From the NCBI RefSeq assembly GCF_004348535.1, contig NZ_SMJX01000031.1:1-44137 (forward strand): a stretch of 44,137 bases of DNA, given 5' to 3'. The notes below the pieces were generated by a model that saw nothing but the letters and a program-made list of their open reading frames with translations, did no database searches and had not been told where the DNA came from. Shown here piece after piece: positions 25,294-35,455 of the stretch (its first letter is position 1; the number at the start of each line of letters is the position of its first letter). The DNA is from Actinomadura sp. KC216 (GTDB taxonomy: Bacteria > Actinomycetota > Actinomycetes > Streptosporangiales > Streptosporangiaceae). The translations under genes and the position numbers were made by a program.

Positions 25294-26499
25294 TCAGCAG
25301 GCCGGGGCCTTGGCGGGGACGGCCGGGGCGGCGTGCGGGCGCAGCGTCCGGCCGCCGAGCAGGCAGAACGCCAGGGCGAGGACGCCGCCCGCCCCGGCCC
25401 CGGCGAACGCGCCGGGAACGCCCGCGAGGTCCTGCCCGAGCCCGGCGGCGAACGACCCGGCCGAGCTGCCCGCGCCGACCGCCGCGACGACCCACGCGAA
25501 CGCCTCGGTGACGGTCCCGCTCGGCGCGAGCCGGTCGACGAGCGTGAAGCTGCACGCCAGCACGGGCGCCAGGAAGACACCGGACGCGAACGCGAGCACC
25601 GACATCGCCGCCAGCCCCGGCGCGAGGACGAGCGGCACGTACCAGGCGGCGAGCGCGGCCAGCAGCCACCGCAGCCGCCGGTGCGGCTCGCCCGCCCACC
25701 GCCGGGCGCCGTAGACGATCCCGCCGGTGAGCGCGCCGCCCGCCATGCACGCCAGCAGCAGCCCGGACGCGAGGTCGCTGCCCTGCCGTTCGGCGTAGGC
25801 GACGACGGCGACCGCGTACACGCCGAGCGCGATCCCCGCGCAGGCCAGGGACAGCAGCAGCACCCGCAGGCCGGGCGAGCGCAGCGGCCCGGCCCAGTCA
25901 GCGGCGCGCGGCTCGCCCGTCCAGCGGCGGGACGGCCCGGACAGCGCGACGATCAGCGTCCCGGCGATGCCGAGCGCGCCGGTCAGCAGCAGCGCGGTCT
26001 CGGTGCTCGCGACGGCCGCGGCGACGACGAGCAGCGGCCCGACGGTGAAGAGGAGTTCCTGGGCGGCGGCGTCGAGGGCGTAGGCGGCGTCGACCTGGTC
26101 GGGGCCGTCCAGGACGTCCGGCCAGAGGGCGCGCAGCCCGGCCTCCAGCGGCGGGGTGGCGAACCCGGCGACGATCACCGCGATGACGGCGGCGGCCAGC
26201 GGGCCCGCACCGACCGCGGCGAGGAGCCCGAAGCCCGCGGCGGACGCGCACGCGGCGGGGAGCAGGACGCGGGGCTGCCCGAACCGGTCCATGGCGCGGC
26301 CGAGGACGGGCTGCCCGGCCGCCGTCGCCAGGCCGAGGATCGCGGCGAGCGTCCCGGCGAGGGGGTAGCCGCCGTCGTCGGCCCGGACGTGCAGCACGAC
26401 GGCGAGCATCCCCATCCCGTTGGGGAGCCGGCCGAGGAGGGTCGCGCCGAGCAGCCGCCCCGCATACGGCCGTCTCAGAAAGACGACATAACCGCGCAT
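25294..26499 (-). CDS. MFS transporter
   Basis: A 401-residue major facilitator with about twelve membrane helices and no large soluble domains. The start ATG (MRGYVVFLRRPYAG) has a G-rich ribosome site (GGGGGG) three bases upstream; the frame extends further but without protein-like sequence. A loop between helices 2 and 3 reads GRAMDRFGQPRVLL, a form of the MFS signature GxxxDRxGRR. It resembles the sugar/drug efflux subgroup of short MFS proteins. The gene is divergent from a LacI-type regulator with two matched operators in the gap, so its expression is probably released by a sugar-like or nucleoside-like ligand. Substrate unknown. Confidence 0.9.
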   Translation of the reverse strand: MRGYVVFLRRPYAGRLLGATLLGRLPNGMGMLAVVLHVRADDGGYPLAGTLAAILGLATAAGQPVLGRAMDRFGQPRVLLPAACASAAGFGLLAAVGAGPLAAAVIAVIVAGFATPPLEAGLRALWPDVLDGPDQVDAAYALDAAAQELLFTVGPLLVVAAAVASTETALLLTGALGIAGTLIVALSGPSRRWTGEPRAADWAGPLRSPGLRVLLLSLACAGIALGVYAVAVVAYAERQGSDLASGLLLACMAGGALTGGIVYGARRWAGEPHRRLRWLLAALAAWYVPLVLAPGLAAMSVLAFASGVFLAPVLACSFTLVDRLAPSGTVTEAFAWVVAAVGAGSSAGSFAAGLGQDLAGVPGAFAGAGAGGVLALAFCLLGGRTLRPHAAPAVPAKAPAC

Positions 26500-26520
26500 G
26501 ATCCCCCCGCATTGATCCCC

Positions 26521-26534
26521 GTCATACGTATTAC
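26521..26534. promoter_or_regulatory. LacI-type operator 1
   Basis: GTCATACGTATTAC is a 14-base palindrome with one mismatched pair and a central CG, the form preferred by LacI-family proteins. It lies 21 bases upstream of the MFS start and 22 bases centre-to-centre from operator 2, two helical turns. Confidence 0.7.
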
Positions 26535-26542
26535 TCGCCCGG

Positions 26543-26556
26543 GTCATACGTACCAC
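26543..26556. promoter_or_regulatory. LacI-type operator 2
   Basis: GTCATACGTACCAC shares the first ten bases of operator 1 and the GT-N2-TACGTA-N2-AC frame. It covers the position of the -35 region of the lacI promoter (TAGTCT -10 at 26575-26580), so it would give autorepression. Confidence 0.65.
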
Positions 26557-26614
26557 TTCCCGGCTGTGCGGCGCTAGTCTGATTTCGTCCATGATCCGCC
26601 AGGGGAGGCGCAAG

Positions 26615-27664
26615 GTGCCGGCAGTCAGCCGTCCCACCAGCAAAGACGTGGCTCAGGAGGCCGGGGTCTCGCAGTCGACGGTCTCGCTCGTGCTGGGCGG
26701 AAAGTGGACCGGCCGGGTGTCCCCCGCCACCGCGAGCAGCGTGCGCAGCGCGGCCGAGCGGCTCGGTTACCGCCCCAACCTGGCGGCCCGGAACCTGCGG
26801 CTGGGCACGACCCGGACCGTCCTGCTGATGGTCCCGACCCTGACCGCGCCGTTCTTCGGACCGGTCTACACCGGCGCGGCGCGGGTCGCGTCCCGGCACG
26901 GCTTCGGCGTCGTCGTCTCCACCTGGTCGGACGACACGACCGCCGCCCCGGACCGCGCGGCGGCGCAGGGCGGCGACAGCCCGTTCGCCGTGCCGGACGA
27001 GGCGATCGACGGCGTCCTCGCGTCGTCGCTGGCCGTCGAGGCGCTCGGCGAGTTCCGGCAGACGCCCGTCGTGATGCTCGACAGCGGCCCGGCCGAACCC
27101 TCCGGGCCGTTCTCCCCGGCCTGTGTCCCGACGGTCGACTTCGGCGTCGCGGACGGGATGCGGGACATCGTCGCGCACCTCACCGCCCTCGGCCACCGCC
27201 GCATCGGGCACGTCGCCGCCGCCGTCGACCAGTGGACGTTCCGTGCCCGCGCCGACGCCCTCGCCGACGCCCTCGCGCCGCTGCCCGGAACGGTCCTGCT
27301 CCGCGCCACCTGCGCGATCGACGTCGGATCGGCCAAGGACGCCGCCGCGCGGCTGCTGGACCGTGCCGATCCGCCGACCGCCCTGGTCTGTGACGACGAC
27401 CTGATCGCCGCGGGCGCCTACAAGGCGGCGCGGGCGCGCGGGCTCGACGTCCCCGGCGACCTGTCGGTCACGGGGTTCGACGACGTCCTGCTCGCCACCG
27501 CGCTGGAGCCGGAGCTGACGACCGTCCGGCTGCCCGCGGAGGAGCTGGGCGCGCAGGGCATGGCGGCACTGCTCGACCTGCTGTCCGGGCGGCGCCCGGC
27601 ACCGCGCGTGCTGCCGGGAGAACTGGTCGTCCGCGGCTCCACGGCGCGCCCTCGGGCCTTGTGA
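26615..27664 (+). CDS. LacI-family transcriptional regulator
   Basis: A 349-residue repressor. The N-terminal helix-turn-helix and hinge are complete: SKDVAQEAGVSQSTVSLVL, then ERLGYRPNLAARNL. The remainder is the periplasmic-binding-like effector domain, with family strands such as LTAPFFGPVYTGA, TALGHRRIGHVA and LSVTGFDDV. The GTG start at 26615 was chosen because GGGGAGG lies six bases upstream; an ATG eight codons earlier lacks a ribosome site. Likely controls the divergent MFS gene and itself through the paired operators. The effector-pocket residues do not identify the ligand. Confidence 0.93.
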   Translation: MPAVSRPTSKDVAQEAGVSQSTVSLVLGGKWTGRVSPATASSVRSAAERLGYRPNLAARNLRLGTTRTVLLMVPTLTAPFFGPVYTGAARVASRHGFGVVVSTWSDDTTAAPDRAAAQGGDSPFAVPDEAIDGVLASSLAVEALGEFRQTPVVMLDSGPAEPSGPFSPACVPTVDFGVADGMRDIVAHLTALGHRRIGHVAAAVDQWTFRARADALADALAPLPGTVLLRATCAIDVGSAKDAAARLLDRADPPTALVCDDDLIAAGAYKAARARGLDVPGDLSVTGFDDVLLATALEPELTTVRLPAEELGAQGMAALLDLLSGRRPAPRVLPGELVVRGSTARPRAL

Positions 27665-27704
27665 GAACGCCGCCCCAGGTCAGGGCGCATACATATCGGG
27701 AGGA

Positions 27705-27738
27705 ATATCGATGTGCGTCCGATATCAATATTGGACAT
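27705..27738 (+). promoter_or_regulatory. 34-bp bipartite element upstream of the beta-lactamase (copy A)
   Basis: ATAT, 12 bases, then GATATCA, three bases, then TTGGACAT. The same parts with the same spacing occur on the minus strand at 30498-30531 upstream of the PBP gene. The inner arms (ATATCG and CGATAT, nine bases apart) form an inverted repeat like the binding site of a LysR dimer. TTGGAC could serve as a -35 box. The regulator is inferred to be the adjacent LysR protein. Confidence 0.65.
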
Positions 27739-27768
27739 GACATCTCCGGCTCTGCTCTGCTCTCCTCC

Positions 27769-28746
27769 ATGAAGACCCGCGCTCCCCGATTCAGGACGCC
27801 GCTCGGCGCCGCCGTCCTCGCCCTCTCGACCTTCGCCGCCATCGCCGGTTGCGACTCCGAGGCCGCCCCGGCGGGCAGCGCGTCGAAGAGCCCGACGAGT
27901 CGGCAGAGCCCGCAGAGCCCGCCCGTTTCCGCGCAGCCCGCGCCGTCCCAAGGCGATGTCACGGCGAAGCTCCGCCGGCTTGAGGAGACCCGCGATGTGC
28001 GGATCGGCGCCTACGCCGTCGACACCGCCACCGGCCGTTTCGTCGCGCACCGTGCGGACGAGACGTTCCCGTTCGCTTCCACGTTCAAGGCCTTCGCCTG
28101 CGGCGCGGTGCTGCGGAAGGCGCGCGATTCCGACCCGGGGCTGATGGACCGCGTCATCCGCTACAAGAAGAGCGACCTGGCCGCCTTCTCCCCCGTCACC
28201 GAAAAGCACGTCGGCACCGGCATGACCGTCGCCGACCTGTGCCACGCGACGATCACCCGAAGCGACAACACCGCCGGAAACCTGGTGCTGAAGGAGATCG
28301 GCGGGCCCGCCGGCCTCACCGCCTTCCTCCGCTCGCTCGGCGACACCGTCACCCGCAGCGACCGCTGGGAGCCCGGCCTCAACGACTGGAAACCGGGCGA
28401 GAAGCGCGACACGACCGCGCCGCGCGCCTGGGCGGGGAGCCTGCGGGCCCTGACGGTGGGCGACGCCCTAGCGCCCGCCGACCGCGACCGGCTCAACGCC
28501 TGGTTGAAGGCCACGGTCACCGGCGGCAAGCGCATCCGCGCCGGGCTCCCCGAGGGCTGGGCCGCCGGTGACAAGACCGGCACCGGCGGCACCTACGGCA
28601 GCGCCAACGACATCGCGATCGTCTGGCCGCCGTCCCGCGCCCCGCTGGTCATCGCGATCCTGACGACCAGGCCGGACGCGGGCGCCCGCACCGACGAGCG
28701 GGCCATCGCGGAGACCGCCCGCGTCCTCACCCAGGCGCTGCGCTAG
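27769..28746 (+). CDS. Class A beta-lactamase, lipoprotein
   Basis: A 325-residue serine beta-lactamase. Signal sequence ends in lipobox IAGC, giving lipid-anchored Cys28, followed by a Ser/Pro/Gln linker to about residue 60. All class A motifs are present: S104-T-F-K107, S165-D-N167, E201-P-G-L-N205 in the omega loop, and K269-T-G271. It hydrolyses beta-lactams outside the membrane; spectrum cannot be predicted. The start is the ATG at 27769 because only this gives a proper signal peptide. It lacks a ribosome site, which is unusual for a leadered gene. It is convergent with the PBP gene (10-base gap) and shares its upstream 34-bp element. Confidence 0.95.
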   Translation: MKTRAPRFRTPLGAAVLALSTFAAIAGCDSEAAPAGSASKSPTSRQSPQSPPVSAQPAPSQGDVTAKLRRLEETRDVRIGAYAVDTATGRFVAHRADETFPFASTFKAFACGAVLRKARDSDPGLMDRVIRYKKSDLAAFSPVTEKHVGTGMTVADLCHATITRSDNTAGNLVLKEIGGPAGLTAFLRSLGDTVTRSDRWEPGLNDWKPGEKRDTTAPRAWAGSLRALTVGDALAPADRDRLNAWLKATVTGGKRIRAGLPEGWAAGDKTGTGGTYGSANDIAIVWPPSRAPLVIAILTTRPDAGARTDERAIAETARVLTQALR

Positions 28747-28756
28747 TCCAGAACTC

Positions 28757-30406
28757 TCACAGGCCCTTGAGGAAGTTCGCCGCGATGGGGGCGGCGGCCT
28801 CCGCGCCGGTGCCCCCGCCCTCGACGATGACGGCGAACGCGACGTCCTTCTGGTAGCCGATGAACCAGCCGTGGGTCGGCGGGTTCTCGCCCTCGCCGAA
28901 CTCGGCGGTCCCGGTCTTGCCGGCCGTCCCGGACGGGAACGAGACGCCCGCCGCCGTCCCCTCGCTCACCACGGCGGGCATGATCGTCTGGAGGGCCTTC
29001 TTGACGGCGGGTTCCAGCCGCTTCGGCGGCTCGGGCTTGCGGCCGCCGGCGTCCGCGGCGTTCACGGCGTCGGCGGGGCCGACGAGGCGCGGCGACCGCC
29101 AGGTGCCGTCGGCCGCGGCGGCGGCGACGGCGGCCATGTTGAGCGGGCTGGTCAGCACCTGGCCCTGGCCGAAGGACGCGGCGGCGAGCGCGGTGTCGTC
29201 CTTGGTGTCGGGGAACGCGGCGCGGACGGCCGGGACCCCGGCGATGATCGGCGCGTTGAACCCGAACTGGGCCGCGACCTCGGTGAGCCGCTTCTCGCCC
29301 AGCTTGTCCACGGCCATGCGCGCGAACGTGGTGTTGCACGAGTGCGCGAACGCCTGCCGGAACGGGACCGTCCCGAAGTCCTCGTACTTGTAGTTGTGGA
29401 ACGAGCGGCCGCCGACCGTCGTGGTGGCCGGGCACGGGACGTTCGTGGCCGCGCCGACGCCGTCCGCGACGATCGCGGCGGCGGTGACGACCTTGAACGT
29501 CGAGCCGGGCGGGTACTGGCCCATCAGCGCCCGGTTGTAGCCGCCGGGCTTGTTCGCCACGGCGAGGATCTCCCCCGTGGACGGGCGCAGCGCGACCATC
29601 GCGGCGGGCTTCTTCGCCGCGCTCAGGGCCTTGCCCGCGGCGGCCTGCACCTGCGGGTCGATGGTCGTCTTCAGCGGGCTGCCCGGAGAGCTGTCGAACC
29701 GCTTCAGCGTCTTGACCGGGGTGCCGTCCGCGCCGACGATCTGCACGGCGAGCCCGGGCGTCCCGGCGAGGCGCCGCTCGTACTGCTTCTGGAGCCCGTC
29801 CAGGCCGACCGGGTCGTCCTTGCGGTAGGGCGCGCGGAGCTTCTTCGCCGCCTCGGCGGACGCGGGCCCGATCGGCCCGGCGAGCTGCCGCGCGGACCCG
29901 GACGGCGATTCGCTCAGCACGCTGCCGTCCGCGGCGAGGACCGGCGCGCGGTCCGGCCACGCGCGACCCGCGCTGAGCCGCTGTCCCTCCTGGAGCTCCG
30001 GGTGGAGGAGCTGCGGCGACCACCGGACGCGCCATTCGCCGTCCCGCTCGACGAGCGGCAGCGGCGCCTCGTACCTCCACGTGCGGGTGCCGGCGAGGAG
30101 CAGCTCGGCGGCGTAGGACGCGCCCGCCTTCCCGCCGTCGGCGCGGCCCACGGACGCGACGGTGAACCGCTGCGAGGTGAGCCCGAGGTCGTCGTACATG
30201 CGGGTGAGGCGCTGCTCGACGTCGGCGGGCGCGCCGTCCGTCAGCGCCTTCATCGCCGCGTGGTCACGGTTCGTCCATGCCGCGAGGTAGCTCTCGGCAG
30301 TGTCCCGCGGGTCGTCTCCCCTGTTCAGGAACCACACCGTCCCCGCCCCCACTACCACGACCGCCGTCACGACCACCGCGACGACGATCATCCGGGTTCG
30401 GCGCAT
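28757..30406 (-). CDS. Class B penicillin-binding protein, MecA/PbpLipo-like
   Basis: A 549-residue transpeptidase with one N-terminal membrane helix (about 6-28). An NTF2-like MecA_N domain follows (about 33-150, beginning DTAESYLAAWTNRD), then a dimerisation region, then the transpeptidase domain. Catalytic motifs are S302-T-F-K305, S356-C-N358 and K497-T-G. This domain order is that of low-affinity PBPs such as MecA/PBP2a, Enterococcus PBP5 and mycobacterial PbpLipo (Rv2864c), which crosslink peptidoglycan. GGAGGAGGGGAGAG lies just before the ATG, an unusually strong ribosome site. The leader carries a 17-bp tandem duplication. With a beta-lactamase on each side and a LysR gene divergent, a role in beta-lactam tolerance is likely. 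Confidence 0.93.
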   Translation of the reverse strand: MRRTRMIVVAVVVTAVVVVGAGTVWFLNRGDDPRDTAESYLAAWTNRDHAAMKALTDGAPADVEQRLTRMYDDLGLTSQRFTVASVGRADGGKAGASYAAELLLAGTRTWRYEAPLPLVERDGEWRVRWSPQLLHPELQEGQRLSAGRAWPDRAPVLAADGSVLSESPSGSARQLAGPIGPASAEAAKKLRAPYRKDDPVGLDGLQKQYERRLAGTPGLAVQIVGADGTPVKTLKRFDSSPGSPLKTTIDPQVQAAAGKALSAAKKPAAMVALRPSTGEILAVANKPGGYNRALMGQYPPGSTFKVVTAAAIVADGVGAATNVPCPATTTVGGRSFHNYKYEDFGTVPFRQAFAHSCNTTFARMAVDKLGEKRLTEVAAQFGFNAPIIAGVPAVRAAFPDTKDDTALAAASFGQGQVLTSPLNMAAVAAAAADGTWRSPRLVGPADAVNAADAGGRKPEPPKRLEPAVKKALQTIMPAVVSEGTAAGVSFPSGTAGKTGTAEFGEGENPPTHGWFIGYQKDVAFAVIVEGGGTGAEAAAPIAANFLKGL

Positions 30407-30424
30407 CGATCTCTCCCCTCCTCC

Positions 30425-30458
30425 TTCTCGAACTGAACCGCTTCTCGAACTGAACCGC
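30425..30458. repeat. Perfect 17-bp tandem duplication in the PBP leader
   Basis: The 17 bases at 30425-30441 are repeated exactly at 30442-30458. They lie between the regulatory element at 30498-30531 and the PBP start at 30406, so they fall in the promoter or 5' leader of that gene. Confidence 0.9.
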
Positions 30459-30497
30459 CCTTGAGCGGAGCCACAAGAACACCAGCCCGCCGCCGAA

Positions 30498-30531
30498 ATG
30501 TCCAAGAATGATATCTATGTTGCAGGTATAT
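30498..30531 (-). promoter_or_regulatory. 34-bp bipartite element in the PBP/LysR gap (copy B)
   Basis: Read on the minus strand: ATAT, 12 bases, GATATCA, three bases, TTGGACAT, the same arrangement as copy A upstream of the beta-lactamase. It lies between the divergent PBP and LysR genes and reaches to within ten bases of the LysR -10 hexamer. That is the normal location of an autoregulatory LysR site. Confidence 0.65.
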
Positions 30532-30540
30532 CCGAATTGA

Positions 30541-30546
30541 TATGAT
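30541..30546 (+). promoter_or_regulatory. -10 hexamer of the LysR gene, likely leaderless
   Basis: TATGAT, eight bases, then the GTG start at 30555. A TTGCAG at 30520-30525 may be the -35 box (15-base spacer) and lies inside copy B of the 34-bp element. Confidence 0.55.
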
Positions 30547-30554
30547 CGCTGGTC

Positions 30555-31529
30555 GTGAACCTCGTCGGCCATCTGCGGTGCTTCGTCATCGTCGCGGAAG
30601 AGCTGCACTTCGGGCACGCGGCGGAGCGCCTCGGCATGGCGCAGCCGCCGCTCAGCCAGCGCATCCAGCGGCTGGAGCGGGAGCTCGGCGTCCGGCTGTT
30701 CGACCGGTCGAGCCGGCGGGTGGAGCTCACCGCGCCCGGCAGGCTCCTGCTGGACGAGGCCCGTGACATCCTCACCCGCGTGGAGCGCATCTACTCCGTC
30801 GCCGAGCGGGCCAGGCGCGGCGAGGTCGGCACGGTCCGGGCGGGCGTGCCGAGCGACCTCGGCGGGACGATCGTCGCCGCGCTCATCGCCGCGTTCCGGG
30901 ACCGGCGCCCCGACCTGCGGCTCGACCTGCGCGAGACCGGCACGGCCGAGCAGGTCCGCGCGCTCGCCGACGGCGCGCTGGACGCGGGCGTGGTCCGGCA
31001 CCCCTGCGACTCCCGCGACCTGGAACTCGGCCCGATGCTCGCCCAGCCCCTCGGCGTCCTGCTCCCCACCGAGGCGAACCTGCCCGGCGACGCGCCCCTG
31101 CCCGCCGAGGTGCATCTGGCCGACCTCCGCGGGTTCGACCTCGTCGTACCGCCGCGCGAGGAGGCGCCCGGCGCGCACGACGACCTGCTCGCGACCTGCC
31201 GGCGCCACGGGTACGCGCCCACCGCGATCCACGAGGCCCGGCATCCGCAGTTCGCGCTGGGCCTCGTCCTCGCGGGGACGGCAGTGGCGCTCGTCCCTCG
31301 CACCGACGACTCCGCCGGGGCGACGTGGCGCCCGCTGGTGGGCGAGCCCCTCTCCTGGCGGACGTCGTGCGTCTGGCGGCGCGCCCGCGACCCCGAGCAC
31401 GCCCGCGCGATCGCCGACTTCGCCGCCGTCGCGACCGCCGTGCTGCGCAGCGAGGCGGGCATGGCACCGCTGGACGGCGCCCCCGCGCGCCGGGTCGTCC
31501 CGCGCCCGTCGTCGGGGTTCCTGGCATGA
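30555..31529 (+). CDS. LysR-family transcriptional regulator
   Basis: A 324-residue regulator. The N-terminal winged helix is standard: FVIVAEELHFGHAAERLGM, QPPLSQRIQRLERELGVRLFDRSSRRVELTAPG. The effector domain follows from about residue 90. Divergent from the PBP gene and overlapping the next beta-lactamase-fold gene by four bases (ATGA), so that gene is translated with it. Its position between two beta-lactamase-fold genes and a PBP recalls AmpR, the LysR regulator of ampC that senses cell-wall fragments, although the sequence shows no specific AmpR hallmark. The GTG start has no ribosome site but a -10 hexamer eight bases upstream. Confidence 0.93.
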   Translation: MNLVGHLRCFVIVAEELHFGHAAERLGMAQPPLSQRIQRLERELGVRLFDRSSRRVELTAPGRLLLDEARDILTRVERIYSVAERARRGEVGTVRAGVPSDLGGTIVAALIAAFRDRRPDLRLDLRETGTAEQVRALADGALDAGVVRHPCDSRDLELGPMLAQPLGVLLPTEANLPGDAPLPAEVHLADLRGFDLVVPPREEAPGAHDDLLATCRRHGYAPTAIHEARHPQFALGLVLAGTAVALVPRTDDSAGATWRPLVGEPLSWRTSCVWRRARDPEHARAIADFAAVATAVLRSEAGMAPLDGAPARRVVPRPSSGFLA

Positions 31530-32473
31530 GCGCGGCCCCGGGCGAGGCGAGCCGGAGGCCGGGCACGCCGGGCACCGGCGGGGACGCCGGCGCGGACGTG
31601 GCCGCGCGCATCGAGGCGGAGTTCCGGTCCGCGGGCGTCACCGGGTTCCTGCACACCGTCGACATGGACACCGGGCGGGAGGTCGCCGTCCGCGCGGGCG
31701 CGCCCGTCGTGCTCGCGTCGGTGTTCAAGGTGCCGCTGCTCGTCACCTTCCACCGGCAGGCCGCCGAGGGGCTGCTCGAGCCGTCCGAGCAGGTCACGCT
31801 TCCTGCGGAGGGCCGCACCACCGGGCCCACCGGGGTGTCGGGGATGCTGGACGAGGCGCGCCTGTCCCTCCGCGACCTCACCTTCCTCATGATCACGATC
31901 AGCGACAACGCCGCCGCCGACGTCGTGCTGGAACGGGTCGGCCGGGACGCCGTCAACGCGACGGCCGCGGCGCTCGGCCTGCGCGACACCGTCGTCGAGG
32001 TCAGCGGGCGCGAGCTGCACGAGACCCTCCTCGCGGACGCCGGGGCCGGCAGCGTCGCCGACGTGTGGGCCAAGCTGGACGAGCCCGGCGTGCAGTCCCG
32101 CCTCCGCGCCCTCGACCCCGCCCGGACGAGCCGCAGCACCCCCCGCGACATGACCCGCCTGCTGTCGATGATCTGGCGGGACGAGGCCGCGCCGCCCGCC
32201 GGCTGCGCCGCGATGCGGCGGCTGTTCGGGCTCCAGGTGTGGCCGCACCGGCTGTCGTCCGGGTTCCCCTACGACGACGTGGTCGTCAGCGGCAAGACCG
32301 GGACGCTGCCGACGCTGCGCAACGAGGTCGGCGTCGTCGAGTACCCGGACGGCGGGCGGTACGCGGTCGCGGTGTTCACGCGGTCGCCGCTGCCCGTCGC
32401 CGTCCTGCCGCAGGCCGACGCGGTCATCGGCACGGCCGCCCGCATCGCCGTCGAGCACCTCCGCCGCCCGTAG
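31526..32473 (+). CDS. Class A beta-lactamase-fold serine hydrolase, no signal peptide
   Basis: A 315-residue protein of the beta-lactamase2 family. Motifs S65-V-F-K68, S126-D-N128 and K257-T-G are present, and TPRDMTRLLSMIW matches a conserved class A helix. A clear omega-loop E-x-x-L-N is not seen, so deacylation, and therefore true beta-lactamase activity, is doubtful. The N-terminus is Gly/Ala/Pro-rich without a hydrophobic segment, so the protein appears cytoplasmic. The ATG overlaps the LysR stop (ATGA), which indicates translational coupling. It could be a cytoplasmic ligand-processing or sensing partner of the regulator, or a hydrolase exported by an unrecognised route. Confidence 0.85.
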   Translation: MSAAPGEASRRPGTPGTGGDAGADVAARIEAEFRSAGVTGFLHTVDMDTGREVAVRAGAPVVLASVFKVPLLVTFHRQAAEGLLEPSEQVTLPAEGRTTGPTGVSGMLDEARLSLRDLTFLMITISDNAAADVVLERVGRDAVNATAAALGLRDTVVEVSGRELHETLLADAGAGSVADVWAKLDEPGVQSRLRALDPARTSRSTPRDMTRLLSMIWRDEAAPPAGCAAMRRLFGLQVWPHRLSSGFPYDDVVVSGKTGTLPTLRNEVGVVEYPDGGRYAVAVFTRSPLPVAVLPQADAVIGTAARIAVEHLRRP

Positions 32474-32492
32474 CCGCCCGTAGCCAGCTGTA

Positions 32493-32516
32493 GCCGCCCG
32501 CGGTCACCCGGGCGGC
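32493..32516 (+). terminator. GC-rich stem-loop after the LysR operon
   Basis: GCCGCCCG and CGGGCGGC form a perfect 8-bp stem with an eight-base loop, 20 bases after the stop. No T-run follows, which is common for actinobacterial terminators. A second small inverted repeat (CCCAAT/ATTGGG, 32543-32561) precedes the next promoter. Confidence 0.45.
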
Positions 32517-32594
32517 CGCGGGTGGCGACCGAACGTGACAGCCCCAATACCTCCGATTGGGCGGACCGCTAACCCGGCACTCCCTCGGGAAACG

Positions 32595-32600
32595 TAGGCT
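32595..32600 (+). promoter_or_regulatory. -10 hexamer upstream of the AAA ATPase gene
   Basis: TAGGCT lies about 36 bases before the TTG start at 32636. This would give a short leader that includes the GGGGAG ribosome site at 32624-32629. Confidence 0.4.
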
Positions 32601-32635
32601 GTACCCCTGCTTTGATCGCTCTTGGGGAGACTTCT

Positions 32636-35455
32636 TTGCGGCTGCCGGATCATCTGGAGCTATTGCTCACCGACGAGCCGGTGCTCGACGTCTACTCGCA
32701 CGGCCCGTGGCGCGTCCCGGACGGGCTCTTCGAGGAGATCTCGGCCCGGATCGACGGACTCGCGGCCGACCCGCGGGCCGCGGACCTGACCACCGACGAG
32801 CACAAGCTGCTGACGCTGCCCGCGTCGCTGGTCACCGCGGAGGTCTTCGGCATCCTGGCGTTCCTGCCCGGCGGCGGCGCGATCAAGGCGGGCTCGTGGT
32901 CGCAGCTCCCCGAGCGGCTGCTGTACAGGCACCTCGTCAACCCCGGCCCGCTCAGCACCCGGATGACCCGCTGGGACGCGCCCGGGGGCCGGTGGCGGCC
33001 ACCGGTCGACTGGTTGATCGAGGCGCCCGACCGGGAGCTCGCGATCGAGCTGGCGCGCGACTGCCTGTCGGTCCTGGAGGGCGTCGAGCCGCTGGAGGAA
33101 CGCCGCAAGGCGCTGCTGCGGATGTACGACGACCCGCCCGAATGCGACGTCAACCTGCCCAAGATGGAGCTGCGGGAGCAGTGGCACGCGCACGCGGGCG
33201 ACGACATCGTCACCGCCGTGCCGGAGCTGCTCGGCCCGGTCGGCTACCTGGAGTGGGTGTGCGGTGGGCTGCTCGCCGCCTACGAGCATCTGACAGAGGT
33301 GGCGCCGCGCGAGGAGAGCGTCGAGGTCCACCTGATCCAGTTGCTGCTGCAGGGCAGCATGGAGCACGTCCCGGCGGAGCTGTCCGTCGCGCTGGGCGAG
33401 GACCGCTACGGCGACCTCCAGCAGCGGTTTCCGGGCGAGCGGCGCGGGTTCAAGCCGGGCGCGTGGCAGGAGCGGACGCGGGCGTGGCTCGTCCGGGCGC
33501 TGGTCGCCGGGGCCGCCGACGCCTGCCGCGGCTGGCTCGACATGGCGATGCGGTTCGTCGCCGTCGTCCAGGGGCTGCCGGGCGACCCGTGGTTCCCGAA
33601 GGCCGAGTGGATCCCGGTCGGCCAGTTCCAGACCGACCTGCGCCGCCTGTACGCGCCGCGCCGCCGCGTCGTCAACCCGCTCACCGAGACGCTGAAGAGC
33701 GTCCCGGCGAAGGCCGCCCCGCCCGCCGGGTCGCGCTCGCGCGGCCGCCCGGAGATCGCGACGTCGCTGGTCGGGCAGCCGGAGGTGGTCCAGGCGCTGG
33801 ACGAGCTCACCCGCGGCGACGAACCCGTCCGGCTGCTGCTCGCCGGGCCCGACGCCACCGGCAAGCGCGACGCCGCGCAGGAGCTCGCGAAGGCGCTCGC
33901 GTTCGGCCGCGACCCGCACTGGGTCACCGACAACCTGTTCACCGGGCAGCGGCTGTCGGACGCCGTCGCCAAGCTGCACGCCGACGCCCGCGACTGCGCC
34001 GGCGACCGGCTGCTCATCATCGAGGGCCTGGACGGCATCGTCACCGACCCCGGCAACGGCGAGGCGATCGCCGCGGAGCTGCACCGGCTGCTGGCCGTCC
34101 ACCTCGACCTGCACGTGGTGGCGCTGTGCGACGCCGGCGGCGAGGACCGGATCCGCGAGATCAACCCCGTCCTGCCGCAGCGGTTCCGCATCGCCCGGAC
34201 CCGCCCGTTCACCGCGGAGGGCCACGCCGAGCTGTTCCGCCGCGCCCTGGAGGCGCGCGGCGCCCGCGGCACCCGGCAGGCCGTGGAGGCGGCGGGCGCG
34301 CTGCTCGCCGCGACGCCGCCGATGCAGACGCTCCGCAACGCGCGCCTGGCCCCGCATCTCGCCGACCAGGTCGTCGCGGCCGTCCGCGCCCGGACCGCCA
34401 AGGACGCGGTCGCGGCGGCGGATCCCACGGGCGAAGGAGCGGTCGAGGAGGCCGGGAACCAGGACGCGAGGCCGGTCGTCCGCAAGCAGGACATCCCGGC
34501 GACGCTGGACACCTCGCTCGCCGCCGGGAACCCGCTCGCCGAGCTGCACTCCCTCACCGGCCTCGACACCGTCAAGCACGAGATCGCGCTCATCGTCGCC
34601 GGGACGCACGCGGCGCGGCTGCGCAGCGAGTCCGGGCTGAAGATCACGCCGCCGACCCGGCACATGGTGTTCACCGGCAACCCCGGCACGGGCAAGACGA
34701 TGGTGGCGCGGCTGCTCGGCCGCATCTACAAGCGGCTCGGGGTGCTGTCGTCCGGGCACCTGATCGAGGCGTCCCGCGCGCATCTCGTCGGCGAGTACAT
34801 CGGGCAGACCGCGCCGCGCACCCGCCGGCTGGTGGAGCGCGCGCTCGGCGGCGTCCTGTTCATCGACGAGGCGTACACGCTGACGCAGTCGCCGCTGAAG
34901 GGCGACTACGGGCACGAGGCGATCGCCGAGCTGGTCAAGCTGATGGAGGACCACCGCGACGACCTCATCGTCATCGTGGCCGGCTACCAGCAGGAGATGG
35001 CGGAGTTCCTCGCCGCCAACCCGGGCCTGGACTCGCGCTTCCCCAAGCAGATCCACTTCCCCGACTACACCGACGACGAGCTGATCACCGTGTTCGGGCA
35101 GCTCGCCGCCGCGGACGGCTTCAAGCTCGCGCCCGGCACCGAGGACGTCCTGCTCGCGATGCTGCGCCGCGCGCCCCGCGGCCCGTCGTTCGGCAACGGC
35201 CGCCTGATGCGCAACATGCTGGACGTGGCCGTCGCCAACCAGGCCGACCGCGTCGCGTCCGCCGCGTTCGCCGCCAAGAAGCAGAGCGCCAAGAAGGGCG
35301 AGAGCGGGGGCAAGGGCCAAACCGGTGGCAAGGGCGAGAGCGGCGGTAAGAAGGCGCTGCGGACGCCGTCGAAGAAGGAGCTGATCACGCTCACGGCCGA
35401 CGACCTGCCTCCGCTGCTGGATCATCCCGAGGAATTCTTCGGGCTGTACCTGTAG
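32636..35455 (+). CDS. CbxX/SpoVK-like protein with two AAA modules
   Basis: A 939-residue cytoplasmic protein. The TTG start is supported by GGGGAG six bases upstream; an in-frame TTG eight codons earlier has none. Residues 1 to about 370 match no family I recognise. A first AAA-like module (about 385-590) has a degenerate P-loop, GPDATGKRD, with Arg where Ser/Thr binds magnesium, and IIEGLDG in place of a DE-box. The second module (about 625-860) is intact: Walker A GNPGTGKT (681-688), Walker B VLFIDEA (740-746), sensor VIVAGYQQEM and an Arg finger region NPGLDSRFPK. This is the CbxX/SpoVK/EccA type of AAA. A Lys/Gly/Ser tail links to a conserved-looking C-terminus ending FFGLYL. Role unknown; these ATPases usually remodel protein complexes. 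Confidence 0.85.
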   Translation: MRLPDHLELLLTDEPVLDVYSHGPWRVPDGLFEEISARIDGLAADPRAADLTTDEHKLLTLPASLVTAEVFGILAFLPGGGAIKAGSWSQLPERLLYRHLVNPGPLSTRMTRWDAPGGRWRPPVDWLIEAPDRELAIELARDCLSVLEGVEPLEERRKALLRMYDDPPECDVNLPKMELREQWHAHAGDDIVTAVPELLGPVGYLEWVCGGLLAAYEHLTEVAPREESVEVHLIQLLLQGSMEHVPAELSVALGEDRYGDLQQRFPGERRGFKPGAWQERTRAWLVRALVAGAADACRGWLDMAMRFVAVVQGLPGDPWFPKAEWIPVGQFQTDLRRLYAPRRRVVNPLTETLKSVPAKAAPPAGSRSRGRPEIATSLVGQPEVVQALDELTRGDEPVRLLLAGPDATGKRDAAQELAKALAFGRDPHWVTDNLFTGQRLSDAVAKLHADARDCAGDRLLIIEGLDGIVTDPGNGEAIAAELHRLLAVHLDLHVVALCDAGGEDRIREINPVLPQRFRIARTRPFTAEGHAELFRRALEARGARGTRQAVEAAGALLAATPPMQTLRNARLAPHLADQVVAAVRARTAKDAVAAADPTGEGAVEEAGNQDARPVVRKQDIPATLDTSLAAGNPLAELHSLTGLDTVKHEIALIVAGTHAARLRSESGLKITPPTRHMVFTGNPGTGKTMVARLLGRIYKRLGVLSSGHLIEASRAHLVGEYIGQTAPRTRRLVERALGGVLFIDEAYTLTQSPLKGDYGHEAIAELVKLMEDHRDDLIVIVAGYQQEMAEFLAANPGLDSRFPKQIHFPDYTDDELITVFGQLAAADGFKLAPGTEDVLLAMLRRAPRGPSFGNGRLMRNMLDVAVANQADRVASAAFAAKKQSAKKGESGGKGQTGGKGESGGKKALRTPSKKELITLTADDLPPLLDHPEEFFGLYL

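Follow-up and report, generated by a model that had tools for sequence, protein, structure and literature searches.

Control of a β-lactamase by a LysR-type protein is familiar from Gram-negative bacteria, where AmpR governs the class C enzyme AmpC, and the repressor–protease system of staphylococci, in which MecR1/BlaR1 and MecI/BlaI control mecA and blaZ, is the familiar case of one switch for both drug hydrolysis and a bypass penicillin-binding protein (PBP). Another system is that of Streptomyces cacaoi, in which the LysR activator BlaA is encoded just before BlaB and the regulated genes include that of BlaU; BlaB is reportedly a penicillin-binding protein. Control of the S. cacaoi β-lactamase BlaL is exerted by an activator of the LysR type together with BlaB, a PBP (PMC3610667). 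Here we analyze a four-gene island of Actinomadura sp. KC216, located in a 44,137-nucleotide stretch of contig NZ_SMJX01000031.1 (the window), in which genes for a class A β-lactamase (bla) and a PBP2a-type PBP each carry a copy of one 34-bp element and lie next to genes for a LysR regulator and a BlaB-type protein. Comparison of sequences makes it likely that the LysR protein binds the shared element and switches on bla and the PBP gene when BlaB, the predicted sensor, meets a β-lactam.

Comparison with described systems

The BlaB gene lies directly 3′ of the LysR gene, with a 4-nt ATGA overlap. By both sequence and fold, the closest solved structure to its product is 2wuq, BlaB of S. cacaoi, a β-lactamase regulator. 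A preliminary description of the island, made from the sequence, gave the positions and order of the four adjacent genes correctly and recognized the fold of this protein, but missed that it is a BlaB-type regulatory protein and not a second β-lactamase. It has the class A fold with SxxK, SDN/SDG and KTG motifs; the acylation residues are invariant in 33/33 BlaB sequences and the class A deacylation motif ExxLN is found in 0/33. Because the fourth gene encodes BlaB, we class the switch as a variant form of the LysR–BlaB system of S. cacaoi and not as new parts; the different parts of the earlier notion are the LysR–BlaB pair already known from S. cacaoi, and it is the main target that looks new.

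As judged from sequence, then, the switch is of the LysR–BlaB kind, the variant lying in the PBP as main partner and in a predicted regulon in trans. Shared with S. cacaoi are the order of the LysR and BlaB genes and an operator common to LysR and its divergent target. Here, however, the divergent partner is a PBP2a-type PBP and the β-lactamase is a second target; the BlaB proteins are 31–36% identical, and relatives have further predicted targets in trans. We scanned named genomes with a BlaB alignment and took the best 80 of 437 relatives. Among these 80, 74 have an opposite-strand class A bla match in the fetched stretch, and where the LysR start was found it mostly follows a repeat of the ATGCC/GGCAT type and a core resembling GTCCAA or GTCAAA, which is the S. 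cacaoi layout. Both kinds of locus share the GTCCAA core and have a repeat 5′ of LysR, but the half-sites are ATATC/GATAT here and ATGCC/GGCAT there. A PBP match lies near LysR–BlaB in 5/80 (L315, L316, L318, L321 and L322), and TTGGAC is absent from the stretch examined before these five PBP genes. The LysR proteins encoded beside S. cacaoi-type BlaB in the named genomes match that of the window at about 29–49%, over part of the length.

The PBP has the features of a MecA-like class B enzyme, namely MecA_N (56.7 bits against a Pfam cut-off of 22), dimerization and transpeptidase domains with SxxK, SxN and KTG. Of the preliminary label MecA/PbpLipo, the first half stands on this domain set and the second fits only loosely, the N-terminus being, by reading, a membrane anchor without a lipobox. 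A Foldseek search placed PBP2a in the top rows, followed by PBP5fm among others; the model is weak (predicted local distance difference test score, pLDDT, 66.7, too low for superposition), with a root-mean-square deviation of about 15 to the PBP2a rows.

The island resembles AmpR–AmpC in having a LysR regulator, an operator in the divergent gap and a β-lactamase output. We rejected membership on gene content: the gene divergent from LysR is the PBP gene and bla is class A, no class C enzyme is among the seven proteins of 25294–35455 scanned with Pfam, and the island includes BlaB as partner and a PBP as target. Like MecR1/BlaR1 it would place a class A β-lactamase and a PBP2a-type PBP under common control, with a sensor that binds penicillin (predicted here), but the parts are a LysR protein and a stand-alone class A-fold protein; as the same scan gave neither an M56 sensor protease nor a BlaI-type repressor, we rejected BlaR1/MecR1–BlaI/MecI membership as well.

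The invariant acylation residues, the missing deacylation motif and the reported penicillin binding of S. cacaoi BlaB suggest that BlaB is probably a direct penicillin sensor. A rather unlikely alternative accepts the link between LysR and the element but has BlaB act, in an AmpR-like manner, on the LysR effector, which would be a fragment of peptidoglycan or a nucleotide-linked precursor. Several LysR regulators take small-molecule effectors, and BlaB has, by reading, no signal peptide, so that it would meet the drug only inside the cell; the same three features that suggest a sensor speak against this alternative.

Architecture of the shared element

The two 34-bp copies, at 27705–27738 (plus strand) and 30498–30531 (minus strand), are exact matches to the ATAT-N12-GATATCA pattern, and their equal spacing and the position of the second in the divergent PBP–LysR gap are precisely as first described. 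At up to three mismatches the window holds no further copy (0 in 100 shuffles), and the whole assembly (9,063,532 bases, 667 contigs) holds the same two alone, both at the locus, against 0 for the reversed control. Together with the counts in the genus and in 345 genomes given below, the shuffles, reversed controls and assembly scan rule out a chance similarity of the two copies.

The element is longer than 34 bp. The ATAT with which the described pattern opens forms the right arm of the inverted repeat ATATC-N6-(G/A)ATAT, and 15–16 nt 3′ of TTGGAC there is a −10-like box that is also conserved; both targets have a common register of inverted repeat, GATATC, TTGGAC and −10-like box (Table 1). 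Across PBP and bla sites the repeat arms carry 1.06–1.36 bits per position and the −10-like box about 1.2, against 0.33–0.65 in the two spacers, all of these parts lying outside the search pattern. The arms are separated by N6, and the canonical T-N11-A spacing of LysR sites is not claimed. At two loci (L048 and L052) a second sequence closely resembling the core of the element (AATATTGATATTGGAC) stands on the opposite strand before bla, giving overlapping palindromes.

Association of the element with LysR–BlaB

The strict pattern (ATATCNNTNTTGGACW) occurs in 153/345 genomes of an order-wide sample and its reversed control in 1/345. Element and strong BlaB match (E-value about 1e-90 or better) occur together in 148 of these genomes, the element only in 5, strong BlaB only in 22 and neither in 170 (Fisher p about 1e-65, uncorrected for phylogeny); with a looser BlaB threshold (E ≤ 1e-40) the corresponding counts are 149, 4, 55 and 137. 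Within a sample of 65 genomes of the genus they are 49, 2, 6 and 8 (p 2e-5). The sites of three of the element-only genomes (G112, G278 and G312) precede unrelated or unassigned genes; in G079 LysR runs off the contig end, and G068 keeps the element with most of LysR and BlaB lost. Among the six genus genomes with BlaB and no strict match, four have near matches at the PBP gene (G011, G017, G034 and G064), G004 has a degenerate one and the sixth is G073.

Where the regulator pair has been lost, the element decays. In G031, with LysR broken and BlaB absent, TTGGAC is retained but neither the repeat nor the GATATC box is still matched, and there is no strict element; nor is there one in G014, which has only the tail of BlaB. 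The strict element is also absent in G007, G008, G029, G059 and G074, which have neither PBP orthologue nor BlaB, and in G075. The three LysR–BlaB losses in the genus look independent and differ in stage of decay (L251 in G031, L250 in G068 and L070 in G014). Displaced PBP genes in G087 and G030 retain a near match, and in G087 (L247) the element precedes the major facilitator superfamily (MFS) gene of an MFS–LysR–BlaB array, with the PBP gene far away.

The palindrome also changes with the recognition helix of LysR, as compared over 170 distinct LysR starts. The helix QP[PL]LS[QR] (n=96) goes with GATAT in 84, GGCAT in 0 and neither in 12; Q[PS]V[AVI]SRR (n=63) goes with GGCAT in 28, GATAT in 1 and neither in 34, mostly xGCATA; and other helices (n=11) go with GGCAT in 4, GATAT in 1 and neither in 6. 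We link LysR to the element because of the co-occurrence, the decay of boxes after LysR–BlaB loss and this change of palindrome with helix. The covariation supports the link short of proof, because the helix groups are also clades. Together with the co-occurrence it favors the original proposal that one LysR protein serves both hydrolysis and a bypass PBP, a control that we infer from sequence comparison.

The same element could instead be a promoter for one (alternative) sigma factor driving wall-stress genes, with LysR not involved, which we regard as very unlikely. Such a promoter would account for TTGGAC and the downstream box being conserved at promoter-like spacing, and for TTGGAC staying in G031 despite the loss of LysR–BlaB, but not for an inverted repeat and GATATC box that lie upstream of the promoter core and are decayed in G031, nor for the co-occurrence with LysR–BlaB and the difference in the repeat between LysR helix types.

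Distribution and targets in the genus

The strict pattern matches 51/65 genus genomes and its reversed control 0/65, with 101 matches in total against about 0.8 expected from base composition (all 65, assumed 72% G+C). The 95 distinct strict sites in fetched loci precede class A bla (45), PBP (38), class D bla (8) and MFS (2) genes, and two have no target: at L133 the flanks are those of a class D-type promoter but the gene is missing, and L134 resembles chance. The element is thus found upstream of both bla and PBP orthologues across the genus and is not scattered, with 93/95 sites before these four kinds of gene, as the preliminary reading demanded. Three of the class D proteins were scanned and score 261.6–267 bits with NCBIfam NF012161 (cut-off 250).

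BlaB is present in 56/65 genus genomes (E ≤ 1e-30), once as a remnant (G014), and a PBP orthologue (E < 1e-200) in 58/65. By reading of coordinates, 49 of the 55 genomes that have an intact BlaB keep the PBP and BlaB genes together; in the remaining six they are split between contigs in four (G016, G026, G035 and G083) and truly apart in two (G030 and G087). In the 27 loci with full flanks (L034–L046 and L048–L061), a class A bla lies within the fetched stretch in 18, and 15 of these 18 carry the element; for the nine loci without bla, five genomes have a distant element-bearing β-lactamase gene (four class A, one class D).

These nine loci, and the bla genes without element in G013 and G021, are what one would expect if LysR controlled only the divergent PBP gene and itself, the bla element being ancestral or bla being controlled otherwise. 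We consider this scarcely probable, as 45 distinct class A bla sites, some of them distant from LysR, have kept the element, and genes of unrelated families bear it too.

Targets in the wider order

At least 136 sites lie outside the genus, of which 74 were classified; 20 were returned automatically and 54 were hand-picked, favoring second sites and the ATATCNNTC type, so that the shares of targets are non-random. The 74 comprise PBP (35), class A bla (11), bifunctional GT51 PBP (10), class D bla (6), metallo-β-lactamase (MBL)-fold (3) and MFS (2) genes, one LysR-divergent site without a clear target (L235) and six unrelated or unassigned sites. The GT51 assignments are by Pfam in six cases and by reading in four, of which L195 is frame-broken; the peptidoglycan synthase thus seems to belong to the predicted regulon. 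Bifunctional GT51 PBP genes of other genera preceded by the element are found at L203, L213, L216, L218, L222, L223, L226, L230 and L237. The MBL-fold genes are at L173, L200 and L245, and in G104 an MBL-fold gene lies just 3′ of BlaB; we rejected these targets as β-lactamases, as they score 98.7–102.3 bits against a subclass B3 cut-off of 240. The unrelated genes encode a tartrate dehydrogenase (L174), a nucleotide-sugar dehydrogenase (L231) and a citrate symporter (L243), with L242 assigned by reading; L221 and L227 are unassigned. Because unrelated gene families elsewhere in genomes bear the element, copying of one local promoter was rejected as the whole story. The same operator probably serves further targets elsewhere in the genomes of relatives.

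Several observations weigh against control of both targets by LysR through the element. GATATC and TTGGAC belonged to the search pattern, and their conservation is therefore partly selected. The strict pattern is absent in 22 genomes with strong BlaB. The helix–site counts, like those of co-occurrence, are uncorrected for phylogeny, and the two helix types are clades. An adjacent bla lacks the element in L034 (G013, a very close relative) and L035 (G021), and bla of L036 (G004) retains the TTGGACAT part only. Finally, half-sites are weak as a sorter of true from unrelated sites in the family: both occur in fixed register in 0/6 unrelated sites and 31/53 sites before PBP, bla, class D or MFS genes, and in 2/6 and 33/53 with shifts allowed.

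Features of the locus

The features are collected in Table 1. A divergent MFS transporter gene (minus strand) and a LacI-type regulator gene (plus strand) flank the island at 25294–27664 and are retained beside most of the genus loci examined.

Table 1. Genes and predicted regulatory features of the island (positions in the window)
Feature	Position	Strand	Basis or remark
Predicted LysR recognition site before bla, inverted repeat ATATC-N6-AATAT	27693–27708	+	Register as PBP-side repeat in relatives
bla promoter GATATC box (predicted activation site) and TTGGAC (predicted −35)	27721–27736	+	
bla promoter −10-like box (prediction)	27751–27758	+	Kept in 45 bla sites, about 1.2 bits/position
Class A β-lactamase, predicted lipoprotein	27769–28746	+	Pfam PF13354; NCBIfam NF033103 320 bits (cut-off 200); lipobox by reading
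PBP2a/PBP5fm-type class B PBP	28757–30406	−	Pfam MecA_N, PBP_dimer and Transpeptidase; STFK, SCN, KTG by reading
PBP promoter −10-like box CTGGTGTTCT (prediction)	30477–30486	−	Kept in 47 PBP sites
PBP promoter GATATC box (predicted activation site) and TTGGAC (predicted −35)	30500–30515	−	
Inverted repeat ATATC-N6-GATAT, PBP–LysR gap	30528–30543	.	Conserved in genus loci; overlaps predicted LysR −10
TATGAT, predicted LysR −10, 8 nt 5′ of GTG	30541–30546	+	Aligned in relatives; leaderless mRNA predicted
LysR-type regulator (BlaA-like)	30555–31529	+	GTG start; Pfam HTH_1 and LysR_substrate
BlaB-type regulatory protein, class A β-lactamase fold	31526–32473	+	Pfam Beta-lactamase2; predicted cytoplasmic penicillin sensor

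Discussion

We propose that LysR would sit on the inverted repeat and limit its own expression, because its predicted −10 hexamer overlaps the repeat just before the start codon. A β-lactam would then acylate BlaB, or BlaB would report a wall fragment, and LysR would be changed by BlaB; the altered LysR may occupy GATATC beside the −35 and recruit polymerase, and the output would be drug hydrolysis together with a substitute transpeptidase.

In a broader reading, somewhat more probable than not, LysR–BlaB is a family-wide master switch of a β-lactam and cell-wall defense regulon, acting through a single LysR operator and a single soluble partner that senses penicillin. Its targets would comprise the PBP2a-type bypass transpeptidase as core, class A and class D β-lactamases, MBL-fold proteins, bifunctional peptidoglycan synthases and MFS transporters in trans, and the switch would be an actinobacterial counterpart of mec–bla built from unrelated regulators. 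What looks new is the target set of LysR–BlaB, with a PBP2a-type PBP as the usual divergent partner; our searches of open-licence PMC papers listed no report of a PBP under LysR–BlaB control.

The LysR–BlaB pair appears to run both drug hydrolysis and the bypass PBP. Across one actinobacterial family, operator copies accompany genes for resistance and wall synthesis that belong to unrelated families and yield a readable regulon, and the way in which the palindrome follows LysR helix type provides a direct handle on the link between regulator and site. The old question of how BlaB signals penicillin to LysR becomes testable by cross-species comparison.

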